A stretch of 39,082 nucleotides of DNA from NCBI GenBank assembly GCA_902510475.1, contig CABXCC010000012.1, positions 1-39,082 on the forward strand. Direction: 5' to 3'. The position numbers and the translations under genes are program-made. This DNA comes from an uncultured Bacteroidota bacterium (GTDB lineage: Bacteria; Bacteroidota; Bacteroidia; Flavobacteriales; Flavobacteriaceae). Below, piece after piece: positions 14,443-35,479 of the stretch. The notes beneath the pieces were generated by a model, which was given only the letters and a program-made list of their open reading frames with translations, did not search any database and had not been told where the DNA came from. The stretch's first letter is position 1. Each line of letters opens with the position of its first letter.

Positions 14443-14446
14443 TATA

Positions 14447-15201: not shown

Positions 15202-15216
15202 GAGATGTCAAAATTA

Positions 15217-15224: not shown

Positions 15225-15228
15225 AACT

Positions 15229-19332: not shown

Positions 19333-19340
19333 CAAATTTA
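19333..19340 (-). promoter_or_regulatory. Possible apbE promoter overlapping the nqrF stop codon
   Basis: The minus strand reads TAAATTTG across the nqrF stop (TAA at 19340-19338), an exact match to TAnnTTTG, 28 bases before the apbE ATG. No TTG is found at the right -33 distance, so it may be a chance match. Confidence 0.3.
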
Positions 19341-20645
19341 TCCCCCAAAATCATCAAAACGGATATTTTCATCGGGAATACCAAAGTCTTCCCCCATTTT
19401 TTGGACAGCCTGATTCATTAATGGTGGACCACAAAAATATAATTCTATGTCTTCTGGAGACTCATGGAATTTCAAATAATTTTCAATAACACAATTATGT
19501 ATAAATCCTAAAAAACCATCCCCGTCAGAATCTAAATCTTCTTTAACCTTCCAATTATCTTCGGGCAATGGATCCGATAAGGCAACATAAAATTTGAAAT
19601 TTGAAAAGTCTTTTTCTAACTTATAAAAATGGTCTAAATAAAATAACTCTTTTCTAGATCTTCCCCCATACCAAAAAGTAATTTTTCTCCCAGTCTGTAA
19701 TGTTCTGAACAAATGATACAAATGAGATCTCATTGGTGCCATTCCTGCTCCACCACCAACATATAACATTTCTGCGTCAGATTCGTTTATAAAAAACTCT
19801 CCATAGGGTCCTGAAATAGTTACTTTATCACCTGGTTTTCGAGAAAATATATATGATGATGCAATTCCTGGATTTATATCCATCCAATTATTTTTTTCTC
19901 TGTCCCATGGTGGAGTAGCTATTCTTACATTTAACATTATTTCTCTTCCCTCCGCAGGGTATGATGCCATAGAATAAGCTCTTTCAACCGTTTCTGGATT
20001 TTTCATAACTAAAGGCCAGATATTAAATTTATCCCATTCAGAGTTAAACTTATCCGCTGAGTCGTGTTCTTCGGGATGAGCTGTGATATCCATATCCTTA
20101 AAATTAACTTCAGTATCAGGAATATCAATTTGAATATATCCACCAGCTTTATAATCCATTTCTTCAGGAATTTTTACTACAAACTCCTTAATAAAGGATG
20201 CTACATTATAATTACTTACAACCGTTGCCTCCCATTTTTTAATTCCAAATACCTCCTCGGGTATGCTAATATCCATGTCTTGCTTTACTTTAACTTGACA
20301 AGCTAGTCTCGCACCAGACTTCAATTCTTTTCTGGTAAAATGAGGAGTTTCTGTTGGCAGAGCCTCACCTCCACCTGAATTAACATGACATTCACATTGA
20401 ATACAGGTACCACCTCCACCACAAGCAGAGGGTAAAAATATTTTTTGGGCACTTAAAGTTGTAAGAAGAGTATCACCTGATGCAACCTCAATTTCTTTTT
20501 CTCCATTAATTTTAATTTTAACAGGTCCTGAAGGAGCTAGTTTTTCCTTGACAAAGAGTAGTAAAAGAATTAATAACAAAGAAACTACTAGTAGTATTCC
20601 TACGACTAATAAAATAGACTGAGTTATGGATGTAGCTAAAATCAT
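19338..20645 (-). CDS. nqrF: Na+-NQR subunit F (NADH dehydrogenase subunit)
   Basis: Entry point for electrons: oxidises NADH and passes electrons through FAD and a 2Fe-2S centre. The 435-residue protein has one N-terminal membrane helix (about 8-32). A plant-type ferredoxin domain follows with Cys75, Cys81, Cys84 and Cys116. The FAD domain contains RAYSMASYP, and the NAD-binding domain has [15 protein letters not shown] and FCGPP. The order of domains matches NqrF. Last of the six nqr genes, two bases after nqrE. Confidence 0.97.
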
Positions 20646-20647
20646 AA

Positions 20648-21370
20648 TTAATTTAAATCAATGTTGCTGTAAACAATATTATCATTGTCCTCAATTTTAA
20701 TATTTTTTGAAATTTCTTCATTTTCATTTTCAAGATTTGACGGGGCTTCATCACCTCCTGTTAACATTCCACCAAAACTCATAAAGCCAATGGCCATTAG
20801 GCCAGTTATGATAAATGTAATTCCGAGTCCTCTTAAGGGTCCAGGGATTGATGAATATCTAATTTTTTCTCTAATGGCAGCAATAGCTAATATTGCAAGA
20901 AAAAAACCAAAACCAGATCCAACACCATATGTAGTTGCCAATTGAATTGTTTCTATCTCTCTTGATTGCATAAAAAGAGAGCCTCCAAGAATTGCACAGT
21001 TAACAGCAATCAAGGGTAAAAATATCCCTAATGAATTATACAAAGAAGGAGAGAATTTTTCTACGATAATCTCAACTAATTGCACCATTGTCGCGATGGT
21101 AGCAATAAATAATATGAAAGAAAGAAAACTTAGGTTGTAATCTATTAAACTTGGGTGCAACCAAACAAGTGCACCATCTTGAAGAATATATTGATCAAGA
21201 AGCCAGTTTAATGGAACGGTAATAGCCAATACAAAGGTAACTGCTGCTCCTAATCCAATGGCAGTAGAAACTTTTTTTGAAACAGCTAAATATGAGCACA
21301 TTCCTAAAAATGTCGCAAATACCATATTGTCTATGAATACTGATTTAAAAAATAGTTCTATATGTTCCAT
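20648..21370 (-). CDS. nqrE: Na+-NQR subunit E, with acidic C-terminal extension
   Basis: Integral membrane subunit with six helices. Together with NqrD it holds the intramembrane iron centre: Cys25 ([10 protein letters not shown]) and Cys125 (VNCAILGG) are the expected ligands. At 240 residues it is longer than the ~200 typical of NqrE. The extra ~40 residues after the last helix ([11 protein letters not shown] onward) are rich in Asn, Glu, Asp and Ile. Its first base overlaps the last base of nqrD. Confidence 0.96.
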
Positions 21371-22014
21371 TATTCTTCGATTAAATGTTTACTTCTAGCA
21401 CGTTGAACCCATATTATAATTCCAACAACAATTAGCGCCATTGGAGACAACAACATAAATCCATTATTTTCATAACCTAAAGAATACAGATAAGTTTTAT
21501 CAATCGGATCCCCTAAAACAGGAATTCCCCATAAAGTACCCGAGCCTAATAATTCTCTGAAAAATCCTACGATTATAAGGATAACTGCATATCCAAAAGC
21601 ATTGCCAATACCATCTAAAAAAGATCTCCAAAGGCCATTACCCAAAGCAAATGCCTCAAATCTTCCCATAATGATACAATTGGTAATGATTAGACCTATA
21701 AAAACAGACAAGGTTTTACTTAACTCATAGGCAAAGGCTTTGAGAACTAAATCAACAATTATTACAAGGGTTGCAATAACCGTTAATTGAACAATTATCC
21801 TGATTTTAGATGGCACAATATTTCTGATCATTGAAATAACTACATTTCCAACTCCCATTACAAATAAAACTGAAACAGACATGACAACCGATGCTTCTAA
21901 CTCTGCAGTAATTGCCAGGGCTGAACATATTCCTAAAACCTGAACGGTTATAGGGTTATTGTCAGATAATGGATCTGTTATAAGCTTAGTGTCTTTCTTA
22001 GATAAAAGTCCCAT
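21370..22014 (-). CDS. nqrD: Na+-NQR subunit D
   Basis: Membrane subunit of about six helices, 214 residues, homologous to NqrE and arranged with it in inverted topology. Cys30 (LGICSALAIT) and Cys113 (TNCIIMGRFEAFA) complete the four-cysteine iron site with NqrE. Directly abuts nqrC and overlaps nqrE by one base, consistent with tightly coupled translation of the complex. Confidence 0.96.
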   Translation of the reverse strand: MGLLSKKDTKLITDPLSDNNPITVQVLGICSALAITAELEASVVMSVSVLFVMGVGNVVISMIRNIVPSKIRIIVQLTVIATLVIIVDLVLKAFAYELSKTLSVFIGLIITNCIIMGRFEAFALGNGLWRSFLDGIGNAFGYAVILIIVGFFRELLGSGTLWGIPVLGDPIDKTYLYSLGYENNGFMLLSPMALIVVGIIIWVQRARSKHLIEE

Positions 22015-22767
22015 TTAGTTATTTTTAATATTATTAAAATATGATTGATATAAGCTTAAATCACTTCTGATCATAGCAGTAACACCATCACCAGTTATTG
22101 TAGAACCTGCTATAGCGTCAACTTCGTTATCGTATTTGTCAATATTTTTTGGATCTAGGTTTGTTTTTGAAACATTTACACCCTTAAAATTACCGTTTGA
22201 ATCTAACAAAGCCTCACCAATGAAATCATCCATAAAAAATCTTTGTTTAATGTTTGCTCCTAATCCAGGGGTTTCTGCTTTGTGGTCAAAATAAATTCCC
22301 TGAATAGTCATGTTCTCATCCAATGAAACATATGCCCATATAGCATCCCATAAACCTTTACCTCTAATTGGAGCGACATATAACATTTTTTCATCTTTTT
22401 CAGCAATGAAAAGTGGAAGTTTTCTGCTGTAATTTGGATCTTTAGCAAGAGCTTTTTCTTTTTTCACATCGATTAAATAAGCATTATCGTCTTCAATAAC
22501 ATTGTTGTTTTGAATATAAATTTGCTTAGTTATATATTTTTGGAACTCCTGTTCTGCCTTTTCAGCTGAAATAAAACTTACACTATTGCCTTCGTTTTCA
22601 TTAATACCTATCGCGTATAATATATTTTGCTGTTTTTCCAAAAGTTTATTTACTCTTATCTTGTCCTTAAGGGACGAGTCAACAGCTGCCAATAAAGTTC
22701 CAACTATAACTACAAGGCCTATAGCAAACATTAGTGTGTATGAATTCTTTTCAGTATTGATCGCCAT
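22015..22767 (-). CDS. nqrC: Na+-NQR subunit C (covalent FMN subunit)
   Basis: One N-terminal membrane helix (about 10-30) and a periplasmic FMN-binding domain, 250 residues. The flavin site is read as Thr223 in DAIAGSTITGDGV. The usual ApbE target motif is S-G-A-T; here it is A-G-S-T, so the two residues around the glycine differ. The conserved ETPGLGA segment is also present. It lies two bases after nqrB. Confidence 0.95.
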   Translation of the reverse strand: MAINTEKNSYTLMFAIGLVVIVGTLLAAVDSSLKDKIRVNKLLEKQQNILYAIGINENEGNSVSFISAEKAEQEFQKYITKQIYIQNNNVIEDDNAYLIDVKKEKALAKDPNYSRKLPLFIAEKDEKMLYVAPIRGKGLWDAIWAYVSLDENMTIQGIYFDHKAETPGLGANIKQRFFMDDFIGEALLDSNGNFKGVNVSKTNLDPKNIDKYDNEVDAIAGSTITGDGVTAMIRSDLSLYQSYFNNIKNN

Positions 22768-22769
22768 AT

Positions 22770-23981
22770 TTAAATATTTTTAATTTTTAGTCTATTTAAT
22801 CTCATCTTTACATTAGATTGAACAACAAAGTGGTCTATTGTTGGAGCAAAAACATTCATCAATAATATCGCTAGAAAAACGCCTTCTGGGTAGGCAGGAT
22901 TAAACACTCTTATCATTATAGAAATAAATCCTATCAGAAACCCATAAATCCATTTTCCTTTATTTGTTTGAGCGGCGGTGACAGGATCAGTAGCCATAAA
23001 TACAGCCCCAAATAAAATACTTCCTATCAGTAAATGTTGCCAATAAGGAACACTCATTAGCCCATAGAATTTACTGTACTGGTTAATTAATCCACTGTCA
23101 ACTACCCCGTTAAAAATTAGCCCCATAACCAAAGCACCAAGAAGAGTACTTACAATAATTCTCCAACTACCAATCTTACTAAAGATTAAAAATAGAGCAC
23201 CAAAGACAATTAATAATTTGGAAGTTTCTCCAACGGAACCTGGAATAAAACCATAAAACATGTCGGATAGAGAGTAAATAATATCTTGGTTTTGAGCATA
23301 GCTACCAAGTATTGTTTCACCAGAAATAGCTTCTGGTGTACCTGCTCTATTTACAGCGTCGTGGACCCAAACTTTGTCACCACTCATCCATGTGGGGTAA
23401 GCAAAAAACAAAAATGCTCTAATGGTCAAGGCTGGATTTAGAATATTCATTCCCGTTCCTCCAAAAACTTCTTTACCAATAACTACACCAAAAACAACAG
23501 ATACTGCTAGCATCCATAGAGGTAAGTCAACCGGTACAATTAGAGGAACAAGCATTCCAGTAACAAGATAACCCTCCTCAACTTCATGTCCTTTTATGAC
23601 AGCAAAAATAAATTCAACAATAAGTCCAACGGTATATGAAACGATTACCAGAGGTAAAACTTTCATCGATCCAATCATTAAATTATCAAATGTTAGGAAA
23701 TTTTCAAATAGAGATACTTGAGTTGAAATTCCATTGGCGGCATCGATTGCAATATTATACTGGTAACCAGCGTTAAAAATTCCAAAAATAAGACATGGAA
23801 CCAATGACATAATCACGGTATTCATGGTCCTTTTTAAATCATCTGCAACTTTTACATGAGTTCCAGAGGTGGTAATATCATTAGGGGTAAATAGAAATGT
23901 ATGAAATGCATTGAATGCAGGAGCCATTTTTTTACCCTTAAAGCTTTCTTTTATTTCGTGTAATTTTGACTTTATAGACAT
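22770..23981 (-). CDS. nqrB: Na+-NQR subunit B (Na+-translocating, covalent FMN)
   Basis: The large membrane subunit (403 residues, about ten helices) that binds riboflavin and FMN and forms the Na+ path. The FMN-attachment threonine is Thr223 in the sequence S-G-E-T (residues 220-223). The stretch FGGTGMNILNPALTIRAF after helix 4 is strongly family-like, as is the end region ATDPVTAAQTNKGKW. Follows nqrA by two bases. Confidence 0.96.
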   Translation of the reverse strand: MSIKSKLHEIKESFKGKKMAPAFNAFHTFLFTPNDITTSGTHVKVADDLKRTMNTVIMSLVPCLIFGIFNAGYQYNIAIDAANGISTQVSLFENFLTFDNLMIGSMKVLPLVIVSYTVGLIVEFIFAVIKGHEVEEGYLVTGMLVPLIVPVDLPLWMLAVSVVFGVVIGKEVFGGTGMNILNPALTIRAFLFFAYPTWMSGDKVWVHDAVNRAGTPEAISGETILGSYAQNQDIIYSLSDMFYGFIPGSVGETSKLLIVFGALFLIFSKIGSWRIIVSTLLGALVMGLIFNGVVDSGLINQYSKFYGLMSVPYWQHLLIGSILFGAVFMATDPVTAAQTNKGKWIYGFLIGFISIMIRVFNPAYPEGVFLAILLMNVFAPTIDHFVVQSNVKMRLNRLKIKNI

Positions 23982-23983
23982 AA

Positions 23984-25321
23984 TTAACCTATTTCTTTTT
24001 TCATTAAATCAAGACCATTTCTTATAATATCCTGATGGGGTTGTTTAGAAACACAAATAAATTCTGTTAACGCAAAATCTTCAGGAGAAACTTCATACAT
24101 TCCTAATGCTTCCATCTCATCAAGATCATTGTACATACATGCTTTTAAAATCTGCATTGGATAAATATCAAGCGGGAAAACCTGCTCAAAGGAACCAGTT
24201 ACAACAAAAGCTCTATGCTCACCGTTAGTATTTGTATTTAAATCATATTTTTTATCTGGAAATAACCAAGAAAAAGTAAGGGCACGAGAAAAAGAAAATT
24301 TATCAAATATTGGTTTTGCCCAACCAAATAAATCATAATCATCACCCTCAGGAATAACTGTTATTTCATTATCATAATGTCTTAGGTGTCCAGAAATATC
24401 AAGTTTTGAACCTGTTAATATATTTCCAGATATTATTCTTGAATTTTTATTTGTAATCTTCAAAAAGGAAGAAATACACGAACCAATTTTGGTTTTAATA
24501 TATTTTGGATTATCAACAGATGAACCTGAAATTGCGATTATTCTCTCTGGATCATACTTTGCGTTCAAAATTGCATTGCCGATAATTACTAGGTCAGGTA
24601 AATTTAAAGTCCATATAACATCGCCTTTGTTAATGGGAGATATTTTATTAATAATAGTACTTAAATTACCTGAAGGGTGTGGACCCGAGACATTACATAT
24701 ATTAATGTTATTTAATCCTCTTAAAAAACTTTGACTATCCTTTCTAATTGAAACATTTATGCCTCCATTGGTCAACTTGCTTAAGTAATCAATTGCTGTT
24801 TTAATATTTTTTTGCTGCTCAGCTGTAGTATAGTCGTAGTCAGCGGATAAAGGAGCGGAATCAAATCCAGAAATAAAAATTTCTTTAGGATTTAAGCTTG
24901 GATCAGCGATTATGTCATATGGTCTTTGTTTTACAAAAGGCCAAAGTCCCGAATCCAGCATAAAGTTGATGATTTCATCAGGTTCAGAATCACTTATTTT
25001 TGATAATTTTCTGTAAGAATCCTTTCCGTCTGATTTAATTTTAATTTCAAGAACTCTTCTTCTGTCTCCTCTTATAATTTCTTTTATCTTTCCCGAAACG
25101 GGCGATACGAATTTTACCCTTTCAGAATTTTTATCATAAAATATAATGTCTCCAGCTTTTACAAGGTCATTTTCTTTGACAACCAATTTGGGGTAAATTC
25201 CATGAAAATCGGATGGATAAATCGAATAATCAGATGAATTTTTTGGGTCTTCAGTTTCTAATACTGCCTCCCCTTTAAGTTTCAAATTTAAACCTTTTCT
25301 TACAACTATGTCTGTAGGCAT
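23984..25321 (-). CDS. nqrA: Na+-NQR subunit A
   Basis: Cytoplasmic subunit without cofactor that closes the complex on NqrB; 445 residues, the usual length. The N-terminal barrel-sandwich (biotinyl/lipoyl-like) domain is seen at about 30-95 (ENDLVKAGDIIF, SPVSGKIKEI). The following part contains GPHPSGNLSTIINKI and a C-terminal region ending in QPHQDIIRNGLDLMKKEIG, which are typical. First gene of the operon, served by the promoter at 25358-25388. Confidence 0.95.
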   Translation of the reverse strand: MPTDIVVRKGLNLKLKGEAVLETEDPKNSSDYSIYPSDFHGIYPKLVVKENDLVKAGDIIFYDKNSERVKFVSPVSGKIKEIIRGDRRRVLEIKIKSDGKDSYRKLSKISDSEPDEIINFMLDSGLWPFVKQRPYDIIADPSLNPKEIFISGFDSAPLSADYDYTTAEQQKNIKTAIDYLSKLTNGGINVSIRKDSQSFLRGLNNINICNVSGPHPSGNLSTIINKISPINKGDVIWTLNLPDLVIIGNAILNAKYDPERIIAISGSSVDNPKYIKTKIGSCISSFLKITNKNSRIISGNILTGSKLDISGHLRHYDNEITVIPEGDDYDLFGWAKPIFDKFSFSRALTFSWLFPDKKYDLNTNTNGEHRAFVVTGSFEQVFPLDIYPMQILKACMYNDLDEMEALGMYEVSPEDFALTEFICVSKQPHQDIIRNGLDLMKKEIG

Positions 25322-25427: not shown

Positions 25428-26687
25428 ATGAATAAAATTTTCGGTCTTATTTCAATACTTTTTTTACCCCATTTAAATACAATGTCACAAGACATTTCGC
25501 CTGAGATGATTCAGTCTATTTTATTTAAAAAAAACAATGAAAATAAAGCCTCATCATTGATGATTGGAAGTGTTAATGAGCAATTTCACATTTCATTTGA
25601 CGTGTTATCAGGAATTGAATATGATTTATATTATATCATTGAACATTGTGATTTTAACTGGGAAAAATCAAATATTTTAAAATCAGAATACATTTCAGGA
25701 TTTGATGACGTGAAAATTGAAGATTATTCAAGTAGCTTTAACACCTACCAGATTTATACAAACTATAATATATCATTCCCGAACTCAAACACCAGTTTTA
25801 AAAAATCTGGAAATTATATAATTAAAATTTTGGATGAGTTTGGGGTGGAACTTTTTAGAAGAAAATTTATTTTGTATGAGAGTTTATCCCTTGTAAAAAC
25901 GGAAATTAAGAGATCGAGAGAACTAGAATATATAAATGAAAAACAGGTTGTTAATTTTGAAATTGCTCCAGTGAATATTCGTTTTAATAACCCTGATAAA
26001 AATGTAAAAACAGTAATTTTTAAAAATAATGATATTGAAAAATCAATAAAAGACTTAAAACCCCAATATAAAATTGGTCAGAGATTAATTTACAAGTACG
26101 ATAAAGAGTCAAGTTTTTGGGGTGGAAATGAATACCTATACTTTGACAATAAAAATATTCGAAATACGAACGTTAATATAAGAGGATATAACCTAAAAGA
26201 TATTTACGAGAATTATCTTTTTTCAGACTACCCAAGATACAATCGAAAATACACATACAATCCAGACATTAATGGAGGGTTTTTAATCAATGCATCAAAC
26301 GTGGAAGACCCAAATACAGAGGCAGATTATGCAAATATTTATTTTTCTCTTGAAAACGTAAACAATATTATTGGTGGGGATTATAACGTTTATGTAGTTG
26401 GAGAATTTAACAATTTCATCACAAGTGAAGCAAATAAATTGGAATATAACAATAGAAATAATAAACTTGAAGCCTTTATAAAATTAAAGCAAGGTTTTTA
26501 TAATTATAAGTATGTTATAAAACATGACCTTGACATAAAAACAAAATTTAATAATGGTGAGGTTGGAGGTAACTTTGATGAAACAGAAAACTCCTACTCT
26601 ATTCTTGTATATTACAGGGATTTTGGAGAAAGATACGATAGAGTTGTAGGATTTGGAAAAGCATCTTCAGAGAACATTACTAATTAA
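25428..26687 (+). CDS. Type IX secretion plug protein (DUF5103)
   Basis: A 419-residue exported protein. The signal peptide is about MNKIFGLISILFLPHLNTMSQ. The body is beta-rich: an N-terminal domain with YDLYYIIEHCDFNW and GFDDVKIEDYSSSFNT, then YVVGEFNNF and KLKQGFYNYKYV, which resemble a carbohydrate-binding-like beta fold. These features fit the DUF5103 family. One member (Plug) closes the periplasmic end of the SprA translocon in Flavobacterium. The order DUF5103-apaG-pruA is one I recall from other flavobacteria. Divergent from nqrA across 107 bases that hold the nqr promoter and no clear box for this gene. Confidence 0.85.
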   Translation: MNKIFGLISILFLPHLNTMSQDISPEMIQSILFKKNNENKASSLMIGSVNEQFHISFDVLSGIEYDLYYIIEHCDFNWEKSNILKSEYISGFDDVKIEDYSSSFNTYQIYTNYNISFPNSNTSFKKSGNYIIKILDEFGVELFRRKFILYESLSLVKTEIKRSRELEYINEKQVVNFEIAPVNIRFNNPDKNVKTVIFKNNDIEKSIKDLKPQYKIGQRLIYKYDKESSFWGGNEYLYFDNKNIRNTNVNIRGYNLKDIYENYLFSDYPRYNRKYTYNPDINGGFLINASNVEDPNTEADYANIYFSLENVNNIIGGDYNVYVVGEFNNFITSEANKLEYNNRNNKLEAFIKLKQGFYNYKYVIKHDLDIKTKFNNGEVGGNFDETENSYSILVYYRDFGERYDRVVGFGKASSENITN

Positions 26688-26709
26688 AAAATAGTTAAAT
26701 TTATAATTG

Positions 26710-27096
26710 ATGGTAACACAAATAACAAAAGGCATAAAAGTTTCCGTAGAATCTTCTTTTGAAGGGACCTATTACAAGGAAAGCAAGCTTCATTATGCTT
26801 TTGAATATTCTGTTAAAATTGAAAATCAAAGTAAAGAACTGGTGCAGTTAGATTCAAGACACTGGGTAATTCTTGATTCACTAAATGAAGAAGAAACAGT
26901 TGACGGGGAGGGTGTGATTGGTAAAAAACCTGTTTTAAAACCTGGACAATCCCATACCTATACCTCTGGATGTTTGTTAGCATCACCCTACGGAGCAATG
27001 TATGGTTATTACAGAATGATTAACTTAAATTCTACAAAAAAATTTAATGTGATGATTCCTGTTTTTAAACTTAGCGCACCGTTTTCGTTAAATTAA
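26710..27096 (+). CDS. apaG: ApaG-domain protein
   Basis: A 128-residue, single-domain Ig-like protein. RHWVILDS near residue 50, the GEGVIGKKPVLKPGQSHTYTSGC segment (70-92) and the SPYGAMYGYYRM end match ApaG. In E. coli the gene sits with apaH and was linked to Co2+/Mg2+ phenotypes; other members bind pyrophosphate-like ligands. The role here is not known. The frame begins one codon earlier with TTG, but the ATG at 26710 is the natural start. It lies about 20 bases after the plug-protein gene. Confidence 0.93.
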   Translation: MVTQITKGIKVSVESSFEGTYYKESKLHYAFEYSVKIENQSKELVQLDSRHWVILDSLNEEETVDGEGVIGKKPVLKPGQSHTYTSGCLLASPYGAMYGYYRMINLNSTKKFNVMIPVFKLSAPFSLN

Positions 27097-27106
27097 AAAT
27101 TAGTCG

Positions 27107-27114
27107 TAAATTCG
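27107..27114 (+). promoter_or_regulatory. Probable -7 box for pruA (one mismatch)
   Basis: TAAATTCG differs from TAnnTTTG at one base and lies 19 bases before the pruA ATG. A TTTTCG at 27082-27087 sits about 20 bases upstream of it. The 37-base gap after apaG makes a separate promoter reasonable but not certain. Confidence 0.35.
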
Positions 27115-27133
27115 GCGCCTTAAATGTAAATAT

Positions 27134-28762
27134 ATGAGTACAGGATTTTTTAAAGTTCCAAAAGCAAAAAATGAAATAGTTAAATCATATGAGCCAAATT
27201 CATCTGAAAGAAAAGAGGTTTTAAAAACCTACAACGAAATGATTAATACATTCACCGAAGTACCACTATACATAAATGGTAGTGATGTAAAAACAAAAGA
27301 AAAAAAATCCATCAATCCTCCTCATGATCATGGTAAAATTGTAGGTGAATACTACCTTGCTCAACCAAGTGATATAGATTTAGCAATTGATTCTGCCTTA
27401 AAGGCTAAGAAGAGTTGGGAAGCAATGTCATGGGAAAACAGATCAGCTATTTTTTTAAAAGCAGCAGAGTTAATTGCAGGCCCATACAGATCAAAAATTA
27501 ATGCTGCAACAATGATTAGTCAATCAAAAACTGTTCATCAAGCAGAAATTGATTCAGCCTGTGAATTAATAGATTTTTTAAGATTTAATGTTGAATATGT
27601 TACCCAGATCTACTCTAATCAACCAGCTAGTGATAGCGATGCCTGGAATAGGGTTGAATATAGACCTCTGGAAGGTTTTGTTTATGCAGTAACTCCGTTT
27701 AATTTTACAGCTATTGCTGGAAATCTACCAACTTGTATGGCAATGCTTGGAAACGTAGTTATTTGGAAACCAAGCAGCACCCAAATTTTTTCTGCTAAAG
27801 TAATTATTGATGTATTAAAAGAAGCAGGATTACCTGACGGAGTAATTAACGCAGTTTATGGAAATGCATCAATGATTACTGAAAAAGTTTTAGAAAGAAA
27901 GGAATTTAGCGGTCTTCATTTTACAGGATCAACATCTGTTTTTAACAGTTTTTGGAAAACCATCGGAGAAAATATTTCAAATTATAACACATATCCTAAA
28001 ATTGTGGGGGAAACGGGAGGAAAAGACTTTATTGTAGCTCATAAATCGGCAAATCCCAAACAGGTTTCAACCGCAATTACAAGAGGTGCATTTGAATTTC
28101 AAGGACAAAAATGTAGCGCAGCATCAAGAGGTTACATTTCACAAAGTATTTGGAGTGATGTAAAAAAATATTTAACCAATGATCTAGAATCTATAAAAAT
28201 GGGGCCTCCCGATAATACAGAAAATTTTGTTACTGCTGTAATTGACGAGAAATCATTTGATAAAATTGTCAATTACATTGAAAACGCAAAATCTAGCTCT
28301 GATGTTGAAATAATAGCTGGAGGAAATTACGACAAGTCCAAAGGTTATTTTATAGAACCTACAGTGATTTTGGCAAAAGATCCAAATTATATTACAATGC
28401 GTGAAGAAATTTTTGGACCTGTAATGACAATTTTTGTTTTTGAGGATTCAAAATTTGATGAAACATTAAAACTTGTTGATAATACAAGTGAATACGCTTT
28501 AACTGGGGCGATTTTAGCAACTGATAGAAATATTATTCAGCATGCAACGAATTGTCTAAGAAATTCAGCAGGTAATTTTTATATCAATGATAAACCAACC
28601 GGTGCTGTTGTAGGAAAGCAACCATTTGGAGGTGCAAGAGGGTCCGGAACAAATGACAAAGCAGGTAGTATGTTAAACTTGCTCAGATGGGTTTCCCCTA
28701 GATTGATAAAAGAAACATTTGTAACACCTACAGATTACAGATATCCATTTTTAAAGAGCTAG
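27134..28762 (+). CDS. pruA: L-glutamate gamma-semialdehyde dehydrogenase (P5C dehydrogenase)
   Basis: Oxidises the semialdehyde of proline breakdown to glutamate with NAD+. The 542-residue stand-alone form lacks the proline dehydrogenase half found in PutA. The aldehyde dehydrogenase landmarks are FTGSTSVFNSF, the general-base glutamate in VGETGGKDF, and the catalytic cysteine in FQGQKCSAASRGY. PFGGARGSGTNDKAG near the end is typical of P5C dehydrogenases. The N-terminal 40 residues with NEMINTFTEVPLYINGSDV match the family. No prodh gene is in the window. Confidence 0.95.
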   Translation: MSTGFFKVPKAKNEIVKSYEPNSSERKEVLKTYNEMINTFTEVPLYINGSDVKTKEKKSINPPHDHGKIVGEYYLAQPSDIDLAIDSALKAKKSWEAMSWENRSAIFLKAAELIAGPYRSKINAATMISQSKTVHQAEIDSACELIDFLRFNVEYVTQIYSNQPASDSDAWNRVEYRPLEGFVYAVTPFNFTAIAGNLPTCMAMLGNVVIWKPSSTQIFSAKVIIDVLKEAGLPDGVINAVYGNASMITEKVLERKEFSGLHFTGSTSVFNSFWKTIGENISNYNTYPKIVGETGGKDFIVAHKSANPKQVSTAITRGAFEFQGQKCSAASRGYISQSIWSDVKKYLTNDLESIKMGPPDNTENFVTAVIDEKSFDKIVNYIENAKSSSDVEIIAGGNYDKSKGYFIEPTVILAKDPNYITMREEIFGPVMTIFVFEDSKFDETLKLVDNTSEYALTGAILATDRNIIQHATNCLRNSAGNFYINDKPTGAVVGKQPFGGARGSGTNDKAGSMLNLLRWVSPRLIKETFVTPTDYRYPFLKS

Positions 28763-28764
28763 TT

Positions 28765-29790
28765 TTAGTTAAAGTCTTGAAATTCCCCTACTCTAGCCGA
28801 CTGAGAATTAAGCGCTAGATTTTCAGAATTAACTATTATGGCTATAATACTAGTGTTTTCTAGGTTGAAGTCAAATTGACTCATATCTAAATCGAAGTAA
28901 ATTACATTTTCTGAAAGAGCTTCAGAATTTAAAATTTCATCACCCAAAATATCTGTAAAGGAATACCTTAGTACATCTTCGTGTGAATAATCTATTATTG
29001 GGTTGCCCATGCCATAAAAATAGCTATTCTCATCAAAATTTAAATAATTAGCCTGATCTGCAATTAAGTTGTCTTCTGTCAAATAAACTACAATCTTATG
29101 ATCAACTAAGGATTCCTTTGAAATAAATCTAACCCTAGAAATTAAATCATTACCTTCAACCTTACTTTCAATAGAAATAGCGATTGGATTTTGAGTTAAT
29201 ACTAGATCGTTGAGCTCAGAAATATCGTAAGGATCAATCCATTCAATTAATCTATTTATTCTAGCTTCAGGCAAGCCAAATGGGCCTAAAGAACTCGTTA
29301 AATCTTGCTCCTGATCGATCGCGAATTCATCATTTTGGTGAGTGGCAACCACAGTTAGGTTTTGAGAATATAAATCCATTGCCATATTGATAGCATGTTT
29401 AACAGGAGGACAATAGCCACACCACGTACCCGTAAAATCTTCTAATAATACTTTATTAATTGGCTCTACGATAGAATAGCTCTTCATAACAGTATTATAT
29501 AACTGATTTCCAATAGAATATTCAGCAAAAACTTCATGCAAACCTAAATCATCATGAGAAATTTGTGATCCGGTAATTTCTTGACCGTCAATAAAAAAAG
29601 TCGATATCTGGGTATAATCTTCTCCGTTATCTCCGATTACCGAAAAATTAATTAACTGATCAATAAGATAAGATGATTCAACATTTAATCCTGAGATGAT
29701 TTCAGGTTCAATTAAATACGCTGAAAAGTCCTCCTTATCACTACAAGTTAAAAGTATCAGGGAAAAAAGTAAAATTATTTTAGATCTCAT
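28765..29790 (-). CDS. Omp28-related lipoprotein with thioredoxin-like CxxC
   Basis: A 341-residue lipoprotein. Using the ATG at 29790 gives MRSKIILLFSLILLTC with the lipid cysteine at 16. The frame is open 28 codons further upstream, but that extension would bury the signal. An Ig-like region (about 25-110) precedes the Omp28-type domain, which opens with LLEDFTGTWCGYCPP (Cys124/Cys127), a thioredoxin-like active site. Omp28 is an outer-membrane protein first seen in Porphyromonas. The function is not established; a thiol-redox or disulfide role is inferred from the motif. Convergent with pruA and divergent from the TlpA-like gene. Confidence 0.82.
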   Translation of the reverse strand: MRSKIILLFSLILLTCSDKEDFSAYLIEPEIISGLNVESSYLIDQLINFSVIGDNGEDYTQISTFFIDGQEITGSQISHDDLGLHEVFAEYSIGNQLYNTVMKSYSIVEPINKVLLEDFTGTWCGYCPPVKHAINMAMDLYSQNLTVVATHQNDEFAIDQEQDLTSSLGPFGLPEARINRLIEWIDPYDISELNDLVLTQNPIAISIESKVEGNDLISRVRFISKESLVDHKIVVYLTEDNLIADQANYLNFDENSYFYGMGNPIIDYSHEDVLRYSFTDILGDEILNSEALSENVIYFDLDMSQFDFNLENTSIIAIIVNSENLALNSQSARVGEFQDFN

Positions 29791-29873
29791 GGTTATAATG
29801 AGCGCTAATTTACATAATTTGAAACTGATGAAAAACAAATTAAAAAAGAAAGTATATTTACAAAAAACAATCA

Positions 29874-30356
29874 ATGAAAAGATTTATTCTATTTTTCCTA
29901 CTAATGTTTTGTGTAAATTCGTTTAGTCAAAAACAAATTCCTAGTATTGATTTACTTGATTTTCAAGGAGAAAAGATTAATACAACCGATCTTTTAAACA
30001 ATGAAAAACTAACGATTCTTTCTCTGTGGGCCACCTGGTGTGTTCCTTGTATAAAAGAACTTGATGCAATTAACGAAGTTTACGATTTCTGGAAAGAAGA
30101 TATAGATTTTGAATTAATAGCTGTTAGTGTAGACGATAGCAGGTCTCACAGAAGAGCTCAAGCTTTGGTTAACGGAAAAGAATGGCCTTACAAAATATTA
30201 TTAGATGTGAATCAAGACTTTAAGAGGGCTCTTGGAACTTCATTTATTCCACAAACTTTAATAATAAAAAACGGCAAAATTCTCTACCAACATACTGGTT
30301 ATCAACCTGGAGATGAAAATTATTTATTTGAAAAACTTACAGTATATGAAAATTAA
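29874..30356 (+). CDS. TlpA/ResA-like periplasmic thioredoxin
   Basis: A 160-residue exported thioredoxin-fold protein. Signal peptide about MKRFILFFLLMFCVNSFSQ, active site WATWCVPC (Cys56/Cys59), and cis-proline region TSFIPQTLII. Proteins of this group keep other periplasmic thiols reduced, for example during cytochrome or outer-membrane protein maturation. The partner here is unknown. A one-mismatch -7 box (TATATTTA) lies before it. Its end overlaps the DUF6029 gene by 11 bases, so the two are co-expressed. The 84-base gap to the Omp28 gene makes the two divergent. Confidence 0.9.
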   Translation: MKRFILFFLLMFCVNSFSQKQIPSIDLLDFQGEKINTTDLLNNEKLTILSLWATWCVPCIKELDAINEVYDFWKEDIDFELIAVSVDDSRSHRRAQALVNGKEWPYKILLDVNQDFKRALGTSFIPQTLIIKNGKILYQHTGYQPGDENYLFEKLTVYEN

Positions 30357-31995
30357 AATTTTTTATTACATAGCGATATTTTTAATTTATTGTATTTCAT
30401 TTTCGCAAAACGAGACATATATTTCCGGAAGCATAGAAAGCAATTCTCAACTACTCCAAGATGACAGTGGATTAAATTTCTTTTCACCTCAAGATAATTT
30501 AAGATCAAACAATTATTTTCAACTTGATTTTCAAAACGGTAATTTTTCTGCGGGCATTCAGTATGAGAGCTATTTACCTTCAGCATTACTTGGCTATTCT
30601 GAAATCTATAATAATGAAAGCGGAATTGCACAATATTATTTCAAATATGAAGATCAAAAAAATGAGATCAAAGTAGGCTCTATTTATGAGCAATTTGGAA
30701 ACGGACTAATTTTTAGAGCTTGGGAAGACAGGCAGTTAGGTATAAATAATTCTATCAATGGAATTAACTATAAATTTTTTCCAACTTCAAATTTAGAAAT
30801 CTCCGCGATTCACGGAAAACAAAGAAATGGATTTGAATATTCCAACTCTACAATTACAGGACTAAATTCTGATTTTGATATTTCCTCGTTATTAGAATTA
30901 GAGAACATAGGTCTATCATTTGGAGCTAGTTACGTGAATAGATTTCAAGAAAATAACGAGGTAGTTAACGCTCCAGAAAATGTTAATTTAATTGGAACTA
31001 GATTAAACTTATTTCTAAACAAGATCTATATAAACTTAGAAATTGCAAAAAAAGGTAAAGACGTGCTTGTAAACGAAGGGCAAATAGTTTCAGCAAAAAA
31101 GTATGATGGAACCGCTGTGCAAATTGATTTTGGATATTCAAGAAAAGGTCTAGGAATTAACTCAAGTTTTAGGAGGTTAGAGAATTTTAATTTTTACTCT
31201 GACAGATTATCAGAGGGGAATATTTACAATCAACAAACAATTAGCTTCACTCCTGCTCTTAGTAAACAACAGGATTACATGTTAACTAATATATATGTAT
31301 ACAATTCACAGCCTAGATTAGTTATTAATGATATAGAAAAAAGAGTTGGAGAAGTTGGTATACAGAATGACATCTTTTACACCTTTAATAAAGAAAGCCT
31401 TTTAGGAAAATATAAAACGAAACTTGCTGTTAATTTTTCATACTGGAGCTCAATTGAAGCAAACTTCAATTCTGATGACTCATATGATGTTGAGTTTATC
31501 GGCAATGGTAAACGTCTTTACAAAGACTTGAATTTTGAAATCAAAAACAGATGGAATAAAAAAGTGAGTAGTACACTAACATTTATTGATTTAAGTATTG
31601 ATAAAGGTGTCACATTAGGTGGTCCCTTAGGAGTTCAGGGTAATATAGATGCTCGTATTGGTGTTTTTGAATTAAACTTTTTAGATAAAAATAATCGTAA
31701 CAACAGAGTTGTTGCTCAGCACCTCTGGACAAATGATGATAAAAAAGAATGGTTAGGTTTAGTTTATGAATATGCCGTTTCAAATAAATTAAATGTATTC
31801 GTTTCTGATATTTGGAATTACGGAAATGAAAACGATTTACATTATTACAACATCGGAGGAAGTTACTCGAATGGTCCAAGTAGAATCAGCCTAAACTACG
31901 GGAGACAGAGGGGCGGTTTAATATGTGTTGGAGGGGTATGTAGATTTGTGCCCGAGAGCAATGGATTCAATCTAAATTTAAGTTACTCTTTTTAA
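30346..31995 (+). CDS. DUF6029-like outer-membrane beta-barrel protein
   Basis: A 549-residue exported protein. The ATG at 30346 gives a clean signal (MKIKIFYYIAIFLIYCISFS) and overlaps the TlpA-like gene; the longer frame adds 11 residues with no signal. After it the sequence is a run of alternating amphipathic beta strands rich in Tyr, Phe, Asn and Gly, ending in NLNLSYSF with a terminal aromatic residue. This is the form of an outer-membrane barrel. I recognise it as the DUF6029 type, which I recall following TlpA-like genes. Late in the protein there are two cysteines in ICVGGVCRF. Function unknown. Confidence 0.75.
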   Translation: MKIKIFYYIAIFLIYCISFSQNETYISGSIESNSQLLQDDSGLNFFSPQDNLRSNNYFQLDFQNGNFSAGIQYESYLPSALLGYSEIYNNESGIAQYYFKYEDQKNEIKVGSIYEQFGNGLIFRAWEDRQLGINNSINGINYKFFPTSNLEISAIHGKQRNGFEYSNSTITGLNSDFDISSLLELENIGLSFGASYVNRFQENNEVVNAPENVNLIGTRLNLFLNKIYINLEIAKKGKDVLVNEGQIVSAKKYDGTAVQIDFGYSRKGLGINSSFRRLENFNFYSDRLSEGNIYNQQTISFTPALSKQQDYMLTNIYVYNSQPRLVINDIEKRVGEVGIQNDIFYTFNKESLLGKYKTKLAVNFSYWSSIEANFNSDDSYDVEFIGNGKRLYKDLNFEIKNRWNKKVSSTLTFIDLSIDKGVTLGGPLGVQGNIDARIGVFELNFLDKNNRNNRVVAQHLWTNDDKKEWLGLVYEYAVSNKLNVFVSDIWNYGNENDLHYYNIGGSYSNGPSRISLNYGRQRGGLICVGGVCRFVPESNGFNLNLSYSF

Positions 31996-32754
31996 CTAAA
32001 AAATAAATTTCTTAAAATGATGATTTCCGTCAGAAAATTGAAATTTAAAAATGAGAACCTTTCCTTCTAAATTTTGATTAAAAATTGAATTGACTCCGAA
32101 ATTAAGTTCATGTGTGTTAACCAGTTTTCCCTGAATATCAAAAATCTCTAACTTACAATCTGTTGGTGAAATGATATTTAACAATTTAGAATTATACGAA
32201 ATTTGAAAATTAGTATCATTTACATCCGTCATTGAAAGGGTTGATGAGTAATAATAACCAATTGTATAATCAGTTTGTAACTCAGCTTGACTTACAACTC
32301 CATCACCATTTTCGTCAGAAATATAAAATCTAAAGCTATACTGAACAGGGCTATTACCATCACCAGGATCACTATTGAAAAAATGGTCTCCGTCTGCTAT
32401 CTGGGTTTCACCCGGTCCAATATAAACAAATGGCTGAGCATTATTTATGGGATACGATTGTCCTTGCGAAACACCAAAATAACATTCACCAAAACATAAT
32501 TCCATCATACTACCGTCGGTTCCTGAAAAACTTTCAACCTCTACCCTGACTCTTATGGTTTCTGACGTATTATTTCTCACTTTATATGTAAACGAAGCAT
32601 CGGGGTATTCTAATGTGTCAAACTGTAAAATCTGATTATCATAAAGAGTATTACCGTCAAGATCTTCTACAGTAATGGCATATTCAACTTGAGAAAAAAC
32701 ATTAACAGAAACAAATATTGAATATGCGAACAATAATAATGGGATTTTTTTCAT
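31996..32754 (-). CDS. Short T9SS type A cargo protein
   Basis: A 252-residue secreted protein. Signal peptide about MKKIPLLLFAYSIFVSVNVFSQ. The middle is a beta-sandwich-like part with an acidic, Asp-rich loop (DGDHFFNSDPGDGNSP) and an EF-hand-like DENGDGVVSQAEL that could bind Ca2+. The last ~75 residues (LEIFDIQGKLVNTHELNFG... ending KKFIF) follow the type A sorting pattern of type IX secretion substrates. Substrate or role unknown. Its end abuts the DUF6029 stop. The promoter box TATATTTG at 32789-32782 precedes it. Confidence 0.78.
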   Translation of the reverse strand: MKKIPLLLFAYSIFVSVNVFSQVEYAITVEDLDGNTLYDNQILQFDTLEYPDASFTYKVRNNTSETIRVRVEVESFSGTDGSMMELCFGECYFGVSQGQSYPINNAQPFVYIGPGETQIADGDHFFNSDPGDGNSPVQYSFRFYISDENGDGVVSQAELQTDYTIGYYYSSTLSMTDVNDTNFQISYNSKLLNIISPTDCKLEIFDIQGKLVNTHELNFGVNSIFNQNLEGKVLIFKFQFSDGNHHFKKFIF

Positions 32755-32781
32755 TAATTTAGATTTCTTTAATTAGATTTC

Positions 32782-32789
32782 CAAATATA
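32782..32789 (-). promoter_or_regulatory. -7 box for the short T9SS cargo gene
   Basis: The minus strand reads TATATTTG, an exact match, about 27 bases before the ATG at 32754. No TTG at the standard -33 distance (nearest spacers are 15 and 28). On the plus strand two one-mismatch boxes (TAGATTTC at 32760 and 32774) face the Omp28-related gene. Confidence 0.45.
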
Positions 32790-32806
32790 CTAATAAGATG
32801 ACTACA

Positions 32807-34861
32807 ATGAAAAATTACAAATATATATTGCTGTTTTTTTTAATTTCAACTCAAACCTATTTTGCGCAAACTTTTGTTTCTACAAGTCCCGAAAACAAAA
32901 AAGCATTAGTTGAAAAATTCACTGGAATTAACTGTAGTTACTGTCCTTGTGCTGACGTTACAGTATATGGAGTGATTGAAAATAATCCTGATAATATTAT
33001 TATGTTAAAAGTTCACGAAGGTGGCTATGCAGTTCCAGGATCAGGTCAGCCAGATTTCAGAACTCCTTATGGGGATGCACTTTCTAGTCAGGCAAATAAC
33101 ACTGGTAACCCAGCTGTTTCAATTAATAGACATTTTTTCCCTGATTATACCAGTAATGGAGGGACGGCTATTGGGGGTTGCTATTCTAATGCAAGTGGTG
33201 TTGCAATGCAAGGTCCACCAACATACGCCATTGATGAAATTTTAACAGAATCTGCTTATGTAAATGTAGCAGCTGAGGCCGTTCTAAATTATTCATCAAA
33301 CACATTAACAGTAAACACTGAAATTTATTATACCGCTGATAGCCCAAGTTCTGATAATTTCCTGCAAATAGCCATAGTACAAGACAATACAATTGGATAT
33401 CAAGCTGGATCCTCCCTAGCTGCAGGTGGTGCTAATTATGTTCACAATGACAGACTTGTTGATTTTATTACCGGTCAATGGGGTGAAGAAATTAATTCAA
33501 CAAACTCAGGTAGTTTTATCGAAAGAACCCATACATATGAAATTCCAGAAAGCTATAATGACATCCCTGTAATATTGGATGACATCAAGGTTATTGTTTA
33601 TGTTACTGAATCAACGCAGGAAGTTGTAAATGTTAGTAGAGCTGAAATGCAATATGACACCTTTTCTTATGATTTGTCAATTGACTCGATTGACAGCCCT
33701 GTTTTTGCTGGTAATCTTTCTGATAATGAAAATATAACAGTAACAATTTCAAATAATGGTGACAACGACATAGCTAACTTTGAAATGTCTTATGATATTG
33801 ACGGTGTAAATATTTCAACAGAAAATTTTACACCGTCAATTTCATCTAACGAAACAGTAGAATTTACTTTTTCAACCACGCATGATTTTAGTCAAATTGG
33901 CGACTATAATCTAACGGTTACAGCTGTATTTGACGAGGACGAGAATCTGAACAACAATTCAATATCTCAATTAATTACAAATGTTGGTGGAGGAGACTGC
34001 CCAGACGAATATGGCCCACCAATTATATGGAGAGAAAATTTTGAATGCTATGATCCATTTATTTTTGAAAATATTGGAGATTGGTTAGTTTATGATATCG
34101 ATCAATTAGCAACATACGGTTCAAATGCGATGGATTTTCCTAGTGAAACATATTCTGGTGCAGGTTTTATTTATAACCATGCCATTGCAACTGTTTCTGA
34201 TGAAAACACAAATTCTCAAGAACCTGAATGGTGGGATACATACGAGGGTAATCAAGGATTATATTTTGTATCTGGCGTACCCTCAGGTTCTACAACCCAA
34301 AATAATGATTGGATGATAAGTCCTGAATTTTCTCTTGTTAATGTTGAATCACCAACATTAAGATTCATGGCAAAAACATTGAAAGATGATTGGGGGCTAG
34401 AAAGATTTAAAATTACTATTGGTAATACTACTAATTATAATGATTTTACAACTATTTCTGAAGGGGCTTATTTAGAAGCGCCAACGGATTGGACATTATA
34501 TGAATTTGATCTATCTGCTTATGAAGGTCAAAATATTAGGATTGGAATAAATTATTTAAGTAATGATAAATTTGTTTTACAAATGGATGAATTCATCGTG
34601 GAAGGAACCCTTGGGTTCAATGAAAATGAAATATTAAACTTTGAATATTTCTATAATCCTACATATAATATGTTAAACCTAAAATCCGATGAAATATTAA
34701 AAAATATTAAGATTTACAATAGTATCGGTCAATTAGTGATAGATGAAAATATTAATAACTCTAGTTTTTCAACAAACTTAAGTATGTTGTCATCGTCTAT
34801 TTACTTTGTAAAAGTTGAAGGACAAAATGGTATCAAATCGTTTAAGTTAAGAGTTCGTTAA
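32807..34861 (+). CDS. Large T9SS-secreted Omp28-related protein with choice-of-anchor J domain
   Basis: A 684-residue multi-domain secreted protein. In order: signal peptide (MKNYKYILLFFLISTQTYFA); an Omp28-like domain with EKFTGINCSYCPCAD (Cys43, Cys46, Cys48); a CARDB-like Ig domain at about 285-400 (SIDSPVFAGNLSDNENITV); a jelly-roll choice-of-anchor J domain at about 415-605 (WWDTYEGNQGLYF, NNDWMISPEFSL); and a type A sorting tail ending SFKLRVR. The start at 32807 fits the signal; an ATG three codons upstream is also possible. It would be exported by T9SS and attached or released at the surface. Redox function is inferred from the CxxC; the third cysteine is unusual. Its end overlaps rsmG by 15 bases. 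Confidence 0.85.
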   Translation: MKNYKYILLFFLISTQTYFAQTFVSTSPENKKALVEKFTGINCSYCPCADVTVYGVIENNPDNIIMLKVHEGGYAVPGSGQPDFRTPYGDALSSQANNTGNPAVSINRHFFPDYTSNGGTAIGGCYSNASGVAMQGPPTYAIDEILTESAYVNVAAEAVLNYSSNTLTVNTEIYYTADSPSSDNFLQIAIVQDNTIGYQAGSSLAAGGANYVHNDRLVDFITGQWGEEINSTNSGSFIERTHTYEIPESYNDIPVILDDIKVIVYVTESTQEVVNVSRAEMQYDTFSYDLSIDSIDSPVFAGNLSDNENITVTISNNGDNDIANFEMSYDIDGVNISTENFTPSISSNETVEFTFSTTHDFSQIGDYNLTVTAVFDEDENLNNNSISQLITNVGGGDCPDEYGPPIIWRENFECYDPFIFENIGDWLVYDIDQLATYGSNAMDFPSETYSGAGFIYNHAIATVSDENTNSQEPEWWDTYEGNQGLYFVSGVPSGSTTQNNDWMISPEFSLVNVESPTLRFMAKTLKDDWGLERFKITIGNTTNYNDFTTISEGAYLEAPTDWTLYEFDLSAYEGQNIRIGINYLSNDKFVLQMDEFIVEGTLGFNENEILNFEYFYNPTYNMLNLKSDEILKNIKIYNSIGQLVIDENINNSSFSTNLSMLSSSIYFVKVEGQNGIKSFKLRVR

Positions 34862-35479
34862 TTTAGCTGGGAGGTAGACAATTTTTTTATCAATAAAATA
34901 TTCATTGTCTATCACCTCTTTAATAGGAAGTATTGTAAGATTTTCTAATGACGATAATTCGTTACTTATATTACCCCCTTTTAATGCTATAATTCCGTTT
35001 CTTATTGAATGATTAGATTTTTGGTTAAAGCCATTCTTAGACCAGGCTATTATTTTAGGCATTTTTGCAACAGCACGAGTAACCATAAAATCTACCTTAA
35101 GATCTAATTTTTCGACCCTAGAACAAAAAGTAGTCACATTATTTAATTGCAATTCCTTTACAACATTATCAACAACCAAGATTTTCTTTTTTATACTATC
35201 AACTAATATAAAGTTGCAATCAGGAAATAAAATTGCAAGAGGAATTCCAGGAAACCCACCACCGGTCCCAAGGTCAAGTATTTTGGTTTGATTTTTAAAT
35301 TTTATAAATTTTGCTATGCTAAGTGAATGAATAATGTGTCTTAAATTTATATTTTCAATATCTTTTCTGGAAATAACATTAATTCTTTGATTCCAATCTT
35401 CATAAATAAGTTTAAGCATAGAAAATTGTTCTATTTGCTTCTTATTTAAATTTGGAAAATGATCTAAAATTAATTTCAT
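34847..35479 (-). CDS. rsmG: 16S rRNA (guanine-527-N7)-methyltransferase
   Basis: Methylates G527 of 16S rRNA; loss gives low-level streptomycin resistance in other bacteria. The 210-residue protein has the RsmG signature: LIYEDWNQRINVISRKD near the N-terminus, then ILDLGTGGGFPGIPLAILFP (SAM motif I, about 68-87), ILVDS, and VTRAVAKMP. Overlaps the Omp28-related gene by 15 bases on opposite strands. The -7 box TACTTTTG (35503-35496) and the palindrome at 35526-35549 lie upstream. Confidence 0.95.
   Translation of the reverse strand: MKLILDHFPNLNKKQIEQFSMLKLIYEDWNQRINVISRKDIENINLRHIIHSLSIAKFIKFKNQTKILDLGTGGGFPGIPLAILFPDCNFILVDSIKKKILVVDNVVKELQLNNVTTFCSRVEKLDLKVDFMVTRAVAKMPKIIAWSKNGFNQKSNHSIRNGIIALKGGNISNELSSLENLTILPIKEVIDNEYFIDKKIVYLPAKLTNS

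Follow-up and report, generated by a model that had tools for sequence, protein, structure and literature searches.

Five adjacent genes at 28765-34861 of a 39,082-nucleotide stretch of DNA from an uncultured member of the Flavobacteriaceae (GenBank assembly GCA_902510475.1, contig CABXCC010000012.1; the whole stretch is called the window here) encode, in order, an Omp28-type lipoprotein (-), a TlpA-type thioredoxin (+), a DUF6029 protein predicted to form an outer-membrane barrel (+), a small PorA-like protein (-) and an Omp28-type cargo of the type IX secretion system (T9SS) (+). The reading that we favour, tentatively and with a little less than even confidence, is that the Bacteroidia possess a conserved thiol-disulfide unit of the envelope, of which these genes are one copy, and that it exchanges disulfides at the cell surface. 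Relatives of the genes are neighbours in many taxonomic families of the class, the protein families occur in the same genomes, and alignments of Cys columns show one near-invariant pair of cysteines in each of the five families. Such a unit would most likely serve the surface, and perhaps the T9SS as well. The host genome amounts to 1.23 Mb and is 65% complete, and the nearest named relative that we found, whose DUF6029 is 95% identical, is the single-cell-type assembly AG-390-P14.

All five open reading frames are present and uninterrupted, as an earlier reading of the letters alone (the sequence-only reading) had listed them, and the Omp28, AhpC-TSA and DUF6029 assignments, together with the T9SS tail of the last protein, lie above curated cut-offs (Pfam gathering scores of 34.9 bits for Omp28, 26 for AhpC-TSA, 27 for DUF6029 and 27 for Por_Secre_tail; NCBIfam cut-offs of 23 bits for TIGR04183, 150 for NF033782, 230 for NF047696 and 123.15 for TIGR00385). 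The TlpA/ResA-like thioredoxin (29874..30356, +, 160 residues, WATWCVPC) scores 63.3 bits against PF00578. It shares the AhpC-TSA family, the WCxPC motif and a secretion signal with the periplasmic thioredoxins TlpA, ResA and DsbE, but it is unlike the named equivalogs in falling below their cut-offs (48.9 bits for NF047696, 42.8 bits for the DsbE model TIGR00385) and in being tied to a DUF6029 gene. The DUF6029 gene itself (30313..31995, +; 576.7 bits against PF19494) probably starts at ATG 30346, overlapping the TlpA stop codon. The lipoprotein (28765..29790, -) has 341 residues when read from ATG 29790 and scores 66.4 bits against PF11551. Its open reading frame extends to 29874 and holds the lipobox and the CGYC motif that had been described, and it opens with TTG; the likely start, ATG 29790, corresponds to M29, which is invariant in all 20 sequences of our lipoprotein alignment (A3), the window protein among them. 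The exported Omp28 protein (32798..34861, +) measures 687 residues, not 684 as first given, and scores 53.1 bits against PF11551. It also has PF07705 CARDB and choice-of-anchor J (58.7 bits) domains, and it passes the cut-offs for a T9SS type A cargo tail in both PF18962 Por_Secre_tail (32.7 bits) and TIGR04183 (35.2 bits).

The neighbourhood was mapped on the window and 205 other loci, of which 185 remain after removal of DUF6029 proteins at least 90% identical. Wide loci, 126 in all, were taken from part of the DUF6029-positive genomes in three samples (34, 118 and 210 such genomes) and were chosen mainly from the tops of the lists, the class sample contributing about one per family; 125 yielded a DUF6029 map, and L091, with a 97-residue open frame, was left out. 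The 80 named loci are the best 80 of 583 found by two peptide patterns, one of which is the CxGGxC stretch of DUF6029, and they include species of Winogradskyella, Mesonia, Salinimicrobium and Flavobacterium; a pattern-free recount omits them and uses the 112 loci that came from the profile searches only. At 163 of the 185 loci (92 of 112 in the recount) the gene immediately before DUF6029, in the same orientation, is a TlpA gene, with a median of 9 nt from its stop to the first DUF6029 start codon and at most 50 nt in 149 of the 163. An Omp28 gene lies within 9 kb at 167 loci (100 of 112 in the recount) and a PorA-like gene within the same distance at 70 (37 of 112).

The order of genes in other Flavobacteriaceae is often that of the window; in other families of the class it is commonly the small-protein gene (divergent), the T9SS Omp28 gene, TlpA, DUF6029 and the Omp28 lipoprotein gene. 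The flanks vary, PruA and RsmG each being present at 46 of the 97 Flavobacteriaceae and named loci vs 1 and 0, respectively, of the 88 elsewhere. Of the 70 small-protein genes, 65 have a thioredoxin-type gene as direct neighbour, either Omp28 or a TlpA type with a tail (an Omp28-labelled neighbour in 59, a TlpA-labelled one with a T9SS tail in 12, both in 6). At L093, L098 and L156 the gene adjoining the PorA-like one encodes a T9SS-tailed protein of the TlpA type (491, 521 and 487 residues) in place of the tailed Omp28. Five genomes of the family sample (G022, G033, G041, G074 and G122) have the small-protein gene and DUF6029 on different contigs, and in four of them the former lies within 0.6 kb of an Omp28 match. 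Positive genomes of the class sample have 1 to 10 Omp28 matches each; by our estimate, even ten matches would place an Omp28 gene in only about one in ten 20-kb stretches drawn at random from a genome of 2 Mb.

The families also co-occur. The class sample holds 296 genomes, the host's own and others with a completeness of 90% or more; DUF6029 and Omp28 are both present in 209, DUF6029 alone in 1 (G401), Omp28 alone in 8 and neither in 78 (Fisher p 6e-61), and all 133 genomes with the small protein at E 1e-10 are among the DUF6029-positive ones (p 4e-29). Across the 149 genomes of 148 genera in the family sample the corresponding counts are 30, 4, 3 and 112 (Fisher p 9e-24), and all 19 with strong small-protein matches (weakest E 5e-36) have DUF6029; weak partial matches in 18 further family genomes (E 9e-5 to 1e-3, covering the first 83 positions) were left uncounted. 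Some exceptions look like remnants: the DUF6029 stretches of two genomes counted as having DUF6029 only, G045 and G092, are short frames of 97 and 38 residues, and in G012, counted as having Omp28 only, both Omp28 matches are interrupted by a stop codon. These three genomes do no more than suggest that the unit decays jointly, because several other Omp28 matches also hold a stop codon. Taken together, the neighbourhood and co-occurrence counts show that the adjacency is more than chance. Rare adjacency elsewhere, which the sequence-only reading had named as the result that would speak against it, is not what the loci show, and the joint role that it proposed is strongly supported, with the genes staying together where the flanks differ and the families found in the same genomes.

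Cysteines were counted only in genes uncut by a locus end, for DUF6029 only in rows longer than 480 residues, and columns were listed only when Cys was present in more than 30% of rows. Of the 162 adjacent TlpA homologues, 161 keep C56 and all 162 keep C59 (CVPC; 91 and 92 of 92 in the pattern-free loci). C538 and C543 of DUF6029 (CxxxxC) are kept in 180 of 180 rows (109 of 109), and a motif search finds CxGGxC in 182 of 185 DUF6029 proteins, the exceptions being those of L080 (truncated at the end of its contig), L090 (split) and L092 (reading CNAGIC). The window lipoprotein has, in the numbering of its open reading frame, the lipobox Cys44, with acidic residues following, and the CxxC pair C152/C155 (CGYC); in tail-less Omp28 rows the lipobox Cys is kept in 163 of 164, C152 in 164 of 165 and C155 in 163 of 165, the pair being kept in 100 and 99 of 101 pattern-free rows. 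The tailed Omp28 proteins keep C46 and C49 (CSYC) in 85 of 85 rows (50 of 50); the conserved pair in the CSYCPC motif noted earlier thus holds, but its third Cys is absent from the conserved columns, and two more Cys columns of the family (48 of 51 and 46 of 52 non-gap rows) are missing in the window protein. The small protein keeps C87 and C91 (C-x3/4-C) in 69 of 69 rows (37 of 37). One invariant pair per family fits the putative disulfide exchange that the sequence-only reading had offered; the substrate capture offered beside it finds no support of its own.

The main rival to exchange at the surface, which we rate below it and consider doubtful, is that the Cys pairs are mainly structural disulfides and that the TlpA-type protein is a dedicated oxidase, isomerase or reductase acting on its partners before their insertion or export, so that no exchange takes place outside. 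The invariant pairs fit structural disulfides too, and TlpA, whose signal-peptide-like start has no conserved lipobox (a lipobox-like start occurs in 8 of 162 adjacent homologues), should stay in the periplasm and is the gene most tightly coupled to DUF6029. In addition, one of the eight SprA-lacking class genomes other than the host's keeps DUF6029, beside TlpA and an Omp28 lipoprotein, so export by the T9SS is not a must. What argues for active exchange instead is the nature of the Omp28 proteins, since a CxxC motif, an invariant proline and a match to thioredoxins would be superfluous for a structural disulfide. A profile of the 20 lipoprotein sequences matches Omp28 (2r2c, E 1e-18) and, over profile positions 104-340, HBP35 (5y1a, E 9.8e-12) in the PDB; that of the tailed Omp28 proteins (A4) matches HBP35 at E 1.3e-9, and the Omp28 profiles also match protein disulfide isomerase and thioredoxins. 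The invariant proline in each alignment, P202 of the lipoprotein and P105 of the tailed protein, probably marks the cis-Pro position of thioredoxins. Both proteins exceed the PF11551 gathering score and miss the cut-off of NF033782, the Omp28 family outer membrane lipoproteins (56.2 and 75.9 bits), so they are relatives that are not filed in that subfamily. Their homologue HBP35 of Porphyromonas gingivalis is an active thioredoxin that reduces insulin in dependence on C48 and C51 (PMC2907840).

HBP35 (PG0616/PGN_0659) is, like the window's exported Omp28, a T9SS cargo with a thioredoxin CxxC motif, and it is present in a Sov pull-down (PMC8754138). In the accessible text of its source it is a single hemin-binding thioredoxin, without a set of barrel, TlpA and PorA-like partners (PMC2907840), and it differs from the window's exported Omp28, which has CARDB and choice-of-anchor J domains. 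Two other systems invite comparison by description. A trypsin-recruiting protein is likewise T9SS-dependent, located at the surface and annotated as Omp28-related, but it has WD40 and Ig-like domains, and the word thioredoxin is absent from the main text of its source (PMC9477747). The Etrx proteins of Streptococcus pneumoniae are likewise surface thioredoxin-fold lipoproteins serving an exported partner, but that organism is Gram-positive, without an outer membrane, and the partner is SpMsrAB2 (PMC3914529).

The residues that follow the lipobox may bear on whether the lipoprotein reaches the outside. Of 163 rows, 68% have Asp or Glu at +5 after the lipobox Cys and 46% have one at +2, and the window protein reads C-S-D-K-E-D; such acidic residues are taken as marking surface export, by which the lipoprotein may be exposed. 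One locus of a SprA-lacking genome (L259, genome G416; 12236-16511 of the DUF6029-forward map) encodes TlpA and DUF6029 followed by a 689-residue lipoprotein-like protein with two solid Omp28 domains (42-268 and 475-688) and a CAGGQC stretch between them. We do not claim a three-part fusion there, as the middle part matches the PorA-like profile at 4.5 bits only.

DUF6029 is modelled by AlphaFold2 as a barrel (predicted local distance difference test score, pLDDT, 86.1; predicted template modelling score, pTM, 0.81) of 24 strands by our own count, and C538 and C543 lie in its last predicted hairpin (533-548). Barrels of this kind usually have both termini in the periplasm, and if DUF6029 does so, the CxGGxC hairpin and the loop at 125-147 would both lie outside; these two are also its most conserved loops (mean 0.79). 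A Foldseek search returned generic barrels, including ushers, siderophore receptors, porins and the copper transporter OprC. In structure comparison FimD (Z 17.9, root-mean-square deviation (rmsd) 4.6, 375 aligned residues) ties with OccK3 (Z 17.3), and AlgE (Z ~15) is one of many barrels; ushers and Occ porins tie, and we take no function from the fold matches. A phmmer search of the single DUF6029 sequence against the PDB gave chance hits only. A match of the DUF6029 profile to RecA (E 1.9e-6), in which no stretch passes alone, is taken as a repeat artefact of concatenated RecA chains.

The barrel could instead belong to an uptake system in which the Cys pairs bind copper or haem, the Omp28 and PorA-like proteins collect it, DUF6029 admits it and TlpA reduces it or hands it on. 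A surface lipoprotein, a barrel and a periplasmic partner are the usual layout of uptake systems, and OprC is among the barrel matches. HBP35, moreover, is a hemin-binding protein (PMC2907840). We nevertheless regard capture of metal or haem as improbable, although metal genes may lie among the other, unannotated neighbours of the set: OprC ranks amid ushers, siderophore receptors and porins with no specific match, Pfam finds PF19494 and no plug domain in DUF6029, and redox chemistry accounts for a CxxC motif where the sequence resembles thioredoxins. A second alternative for the barrel comes from the only paper in the open-licence literature searched that names DUF6029, which gives it a possible polysaccharide role from HHpred, as many of 28 Wzi-barrel hits near OPX genes show HHpred similarity to it (PMC9603273). 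DUF6029 would then be a Wzi-like export barrel and the thiol genes neighbours that aid its folding, a view with which the presence of AlgE among the fold matches agrees. It appears very improbable, since AlgE matches no better than ushers or Occ porins and the constant neighbours at the 185 loci are thiol proteins (OPX and glycosyltransferase genes were not sought there); our list of fold comparisons has no Wzi row, which we do not count as evidence.

The small protein (31996..32754, -, 252 residues), with an Ig-like domain, the invariant C87/C91 pair and a weak T9SS tail, is a distant homologue of Porphyromonas PorA. It has no Pfam or NCBIfam assignment above cut-off, and the tail-less parts of it and 39 relatives gave no family at E 0.01 save one chance-like Pfam row in one member. 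Its sequence profile, however, matches the PorA N-terminal domain (6kjk) at E 4.4e-6 with the C-F-G-x-C pair aligned, and the same structure is the top Foldseek match to its model (pLDDT 91.0; rank 1, E 7.1e-7), with Z 11.8 and rmsd 3.0 over 125 residues, the next row standing at Z 8.5. Identity to PorA is 16-18% in the structure alignments, and in an alignment of 40 family members (A2), with identity to the window protein down to 17%, only N61, C87 and C91 are invariant. The Cys pair spans a tight turn between two strands in this model, as it does in that of DUF6029. The sequence-only reading had described a short T9SS cargo with an EF-hand-like loop. The loop falls below cut-off (E 0.089) and by eye is not conserved among the 40 sequences; the cargo label fits the family, in which 67 of 70 genes on the mapped loci have a tail by our own tail profile, but the window protein's own tail is below the cut-off (18.0 vs 23 bits for TIGR04183). 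The three tail-less genes are the window's own, one cut by a contig end, and one at L113 (11615-12145), a 177-residue PorA-like protein with a lipobox-like start. L113 suggests that lipid and T9SS anchoring may be exchangeable, and with the lipoprotein-like Omp28 of L259 it makes two cases from which the T9SS appears to be one of two ways of anchoring.

PorA (PGN_0123/PG2172) resembles the window protein in its Ig-like N-terminal domain and the aligned Cys pair, and it has a T9SS tail like most of the window protein's family. It is a surface protein needed for normal T9SS expression via PorXY-SigP, it reaches the surface also in T9SS-deficient mutants, and further factors are thought to be needed between it and PorY (PMC7712824). 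It also forms a PorA-PorV-Sov complex, and among the partners of the Sov (SprA) translocon only PorV is more abundant (PMC8754138). The action through PorXY-SigP and the binding to PorV-Sov are features of P. gingivalis PorA (PMC7712824, PMC8754138). The locus tag next to PorA, PG2173, is named an Omp28 lipoprotein, a neighbourhood that resembles the adjacency of PorA-like and Omp28 genes here, on the P. gingivalis side by the name of the locus tag only (PMC9722745). BLAST homologues of PorA were reported from Porphyromonas only (PMC7712824), vs the 133 of 296 Bacteroidia genomes in which we find the PorA-like family at E 1e-10. That all 133 of these also have DUF6029 can be cited for another proposal, which we think quite unlikely: DUF6029 and the Omp28 lipoprotein would be the missing outer-membrane partner of PorA-type proteins, a redox-gated receptor or port that either conveys the PorA surface signal through the outer membrane toward PorY or provides PorA with a T9SS-independent route to the surface, with the Cys pairs as a switch.

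For the surface exchange unit that we favour, the following working can be proposed. Three proteins would form its core: a TlpA-type oxidoreductase of the periplasm, the outer-membrane barrel of DUF6029, whose Cys pair lies at a hairpin tip with a predicted outward orientation, and an HBP35-like, Omp28-type lipoprotein of thioredoxin fold. An accessory pair would consist of the PorA-like protein, whose two Cys sit on a beta-turn, and another protein of thioredoxin fold; proteins like these two are brought to the surface by the T9SS. TlpA would set or repair the redox state of the Cys pairs in the periplasm, and the CxxC proteins of the Omp28 type would exchange disulfides at the surface with two partners, the PorA-like protein and the hairpin cysteines of the barrel. 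The thiol state outside could in this way control the barrel; by way of the PorA-like protein it could also act on the translocon of the T9SS or on its expression.

Several observations weigh against this proposal. It is not obvious how a barrel in the outer membrane could pass electrons through that membrane. The side on which the hairpin lies is given by strand parity in one model, whose hairpin blocks have pLDDT 74 and 73, and the idea that outside loops are generally more conserved than periplasmic turns did not hold (p 0.41). The set is also not constant: 20 of the 112 profile-found loci have no adjacent TlpA gene, several loci (e.g. L210, L214, L232, L246 and L258) are without TlpA, Omp28 and PorA-like genes alike, and the PorA-like gene was not found at E 1e-10 in 77 of the 210 DUF6029-positive genomes, so that the PorA-like part is not essential. 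Of the 296 genomes, 86 have no DUF6029, and SprA is present in 79 of these 86; DUF6029 is therefore not needed for the T9SS as such, and the unit is no required part of that system. Finally, the Fisher p-values treat genomes as independent and ignore phylogeny.

A looser link to the T9SS may exist. DUF6029 is found in 208 of 287 SprA-positive vs 1 of 8 SprA-negative genomes (p 0.0009, with the host's own genome left out and only eight negatives), and the SprA gene lies within ~8.4 kb on 30 of the 88 loci outside the Flavobacteriaceae and named group. In the window, a T9SS plug protein gene (25428..26687, +; NF052315 407.9 bits, PF17116) lies 2.1 kb upstream of the set and is possibly linked to it, followed by ApaG and PruA genes that complete the stretch 25428-28762. 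The plug gene is present on 38 of the 97 Flavobacteriaceae and named loci, the window included; this link alone could be inherited synteny, PruA and RsmG being no rarer on those loci. Between the divergent lipoprotein and TlpA genes lies an intergenic region of 83 bp (29791..29873), whose sequence was read directly. Promoter-like sites in 28700-34900 are no more numerous than in shuffles (37 vs 32.4, standard deviation 6.2), a promoter and terminator scan of the set region did not rise above shuffles, and an Rfam scan of the window gave no family at gathering score. Farther upstream, 19338-25321 (-) holds NqrA, NQR2-family and NAD-binding oxidoreductase genes, apparently an ordinary operon for a Na+-translocating NADH:quinone reductase.

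The cluster had been called one of unknown purpose, a description that is now too broad, as its small protein is PorA-like and its Omp28 proteins are homologous to HBP35, whose thioredoxin activity was measured (PMC2907840). That no system with this set had been described holds for the set as a whole, of which we found no description in the open-licence literature searched, but the parts have known relatives; what is new is the unit, not its parts. DUF6029 is present in 210 of the 296 sampled Bacteroidia genomes, and the only role proposed for it in the open-licence literature searched is a possible one in polysaccharide (PMC9603273). Its near one-to-one co-occurrence with Omp28, its TlpA neighbour and the Cys pairs turn separate families into one testable unit, and PorA-type proteins now extend over much of the class. 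The unit is also a concrete candidate for the way in which the extracellular thiol state could be brought to bear on the type IX secretion system.

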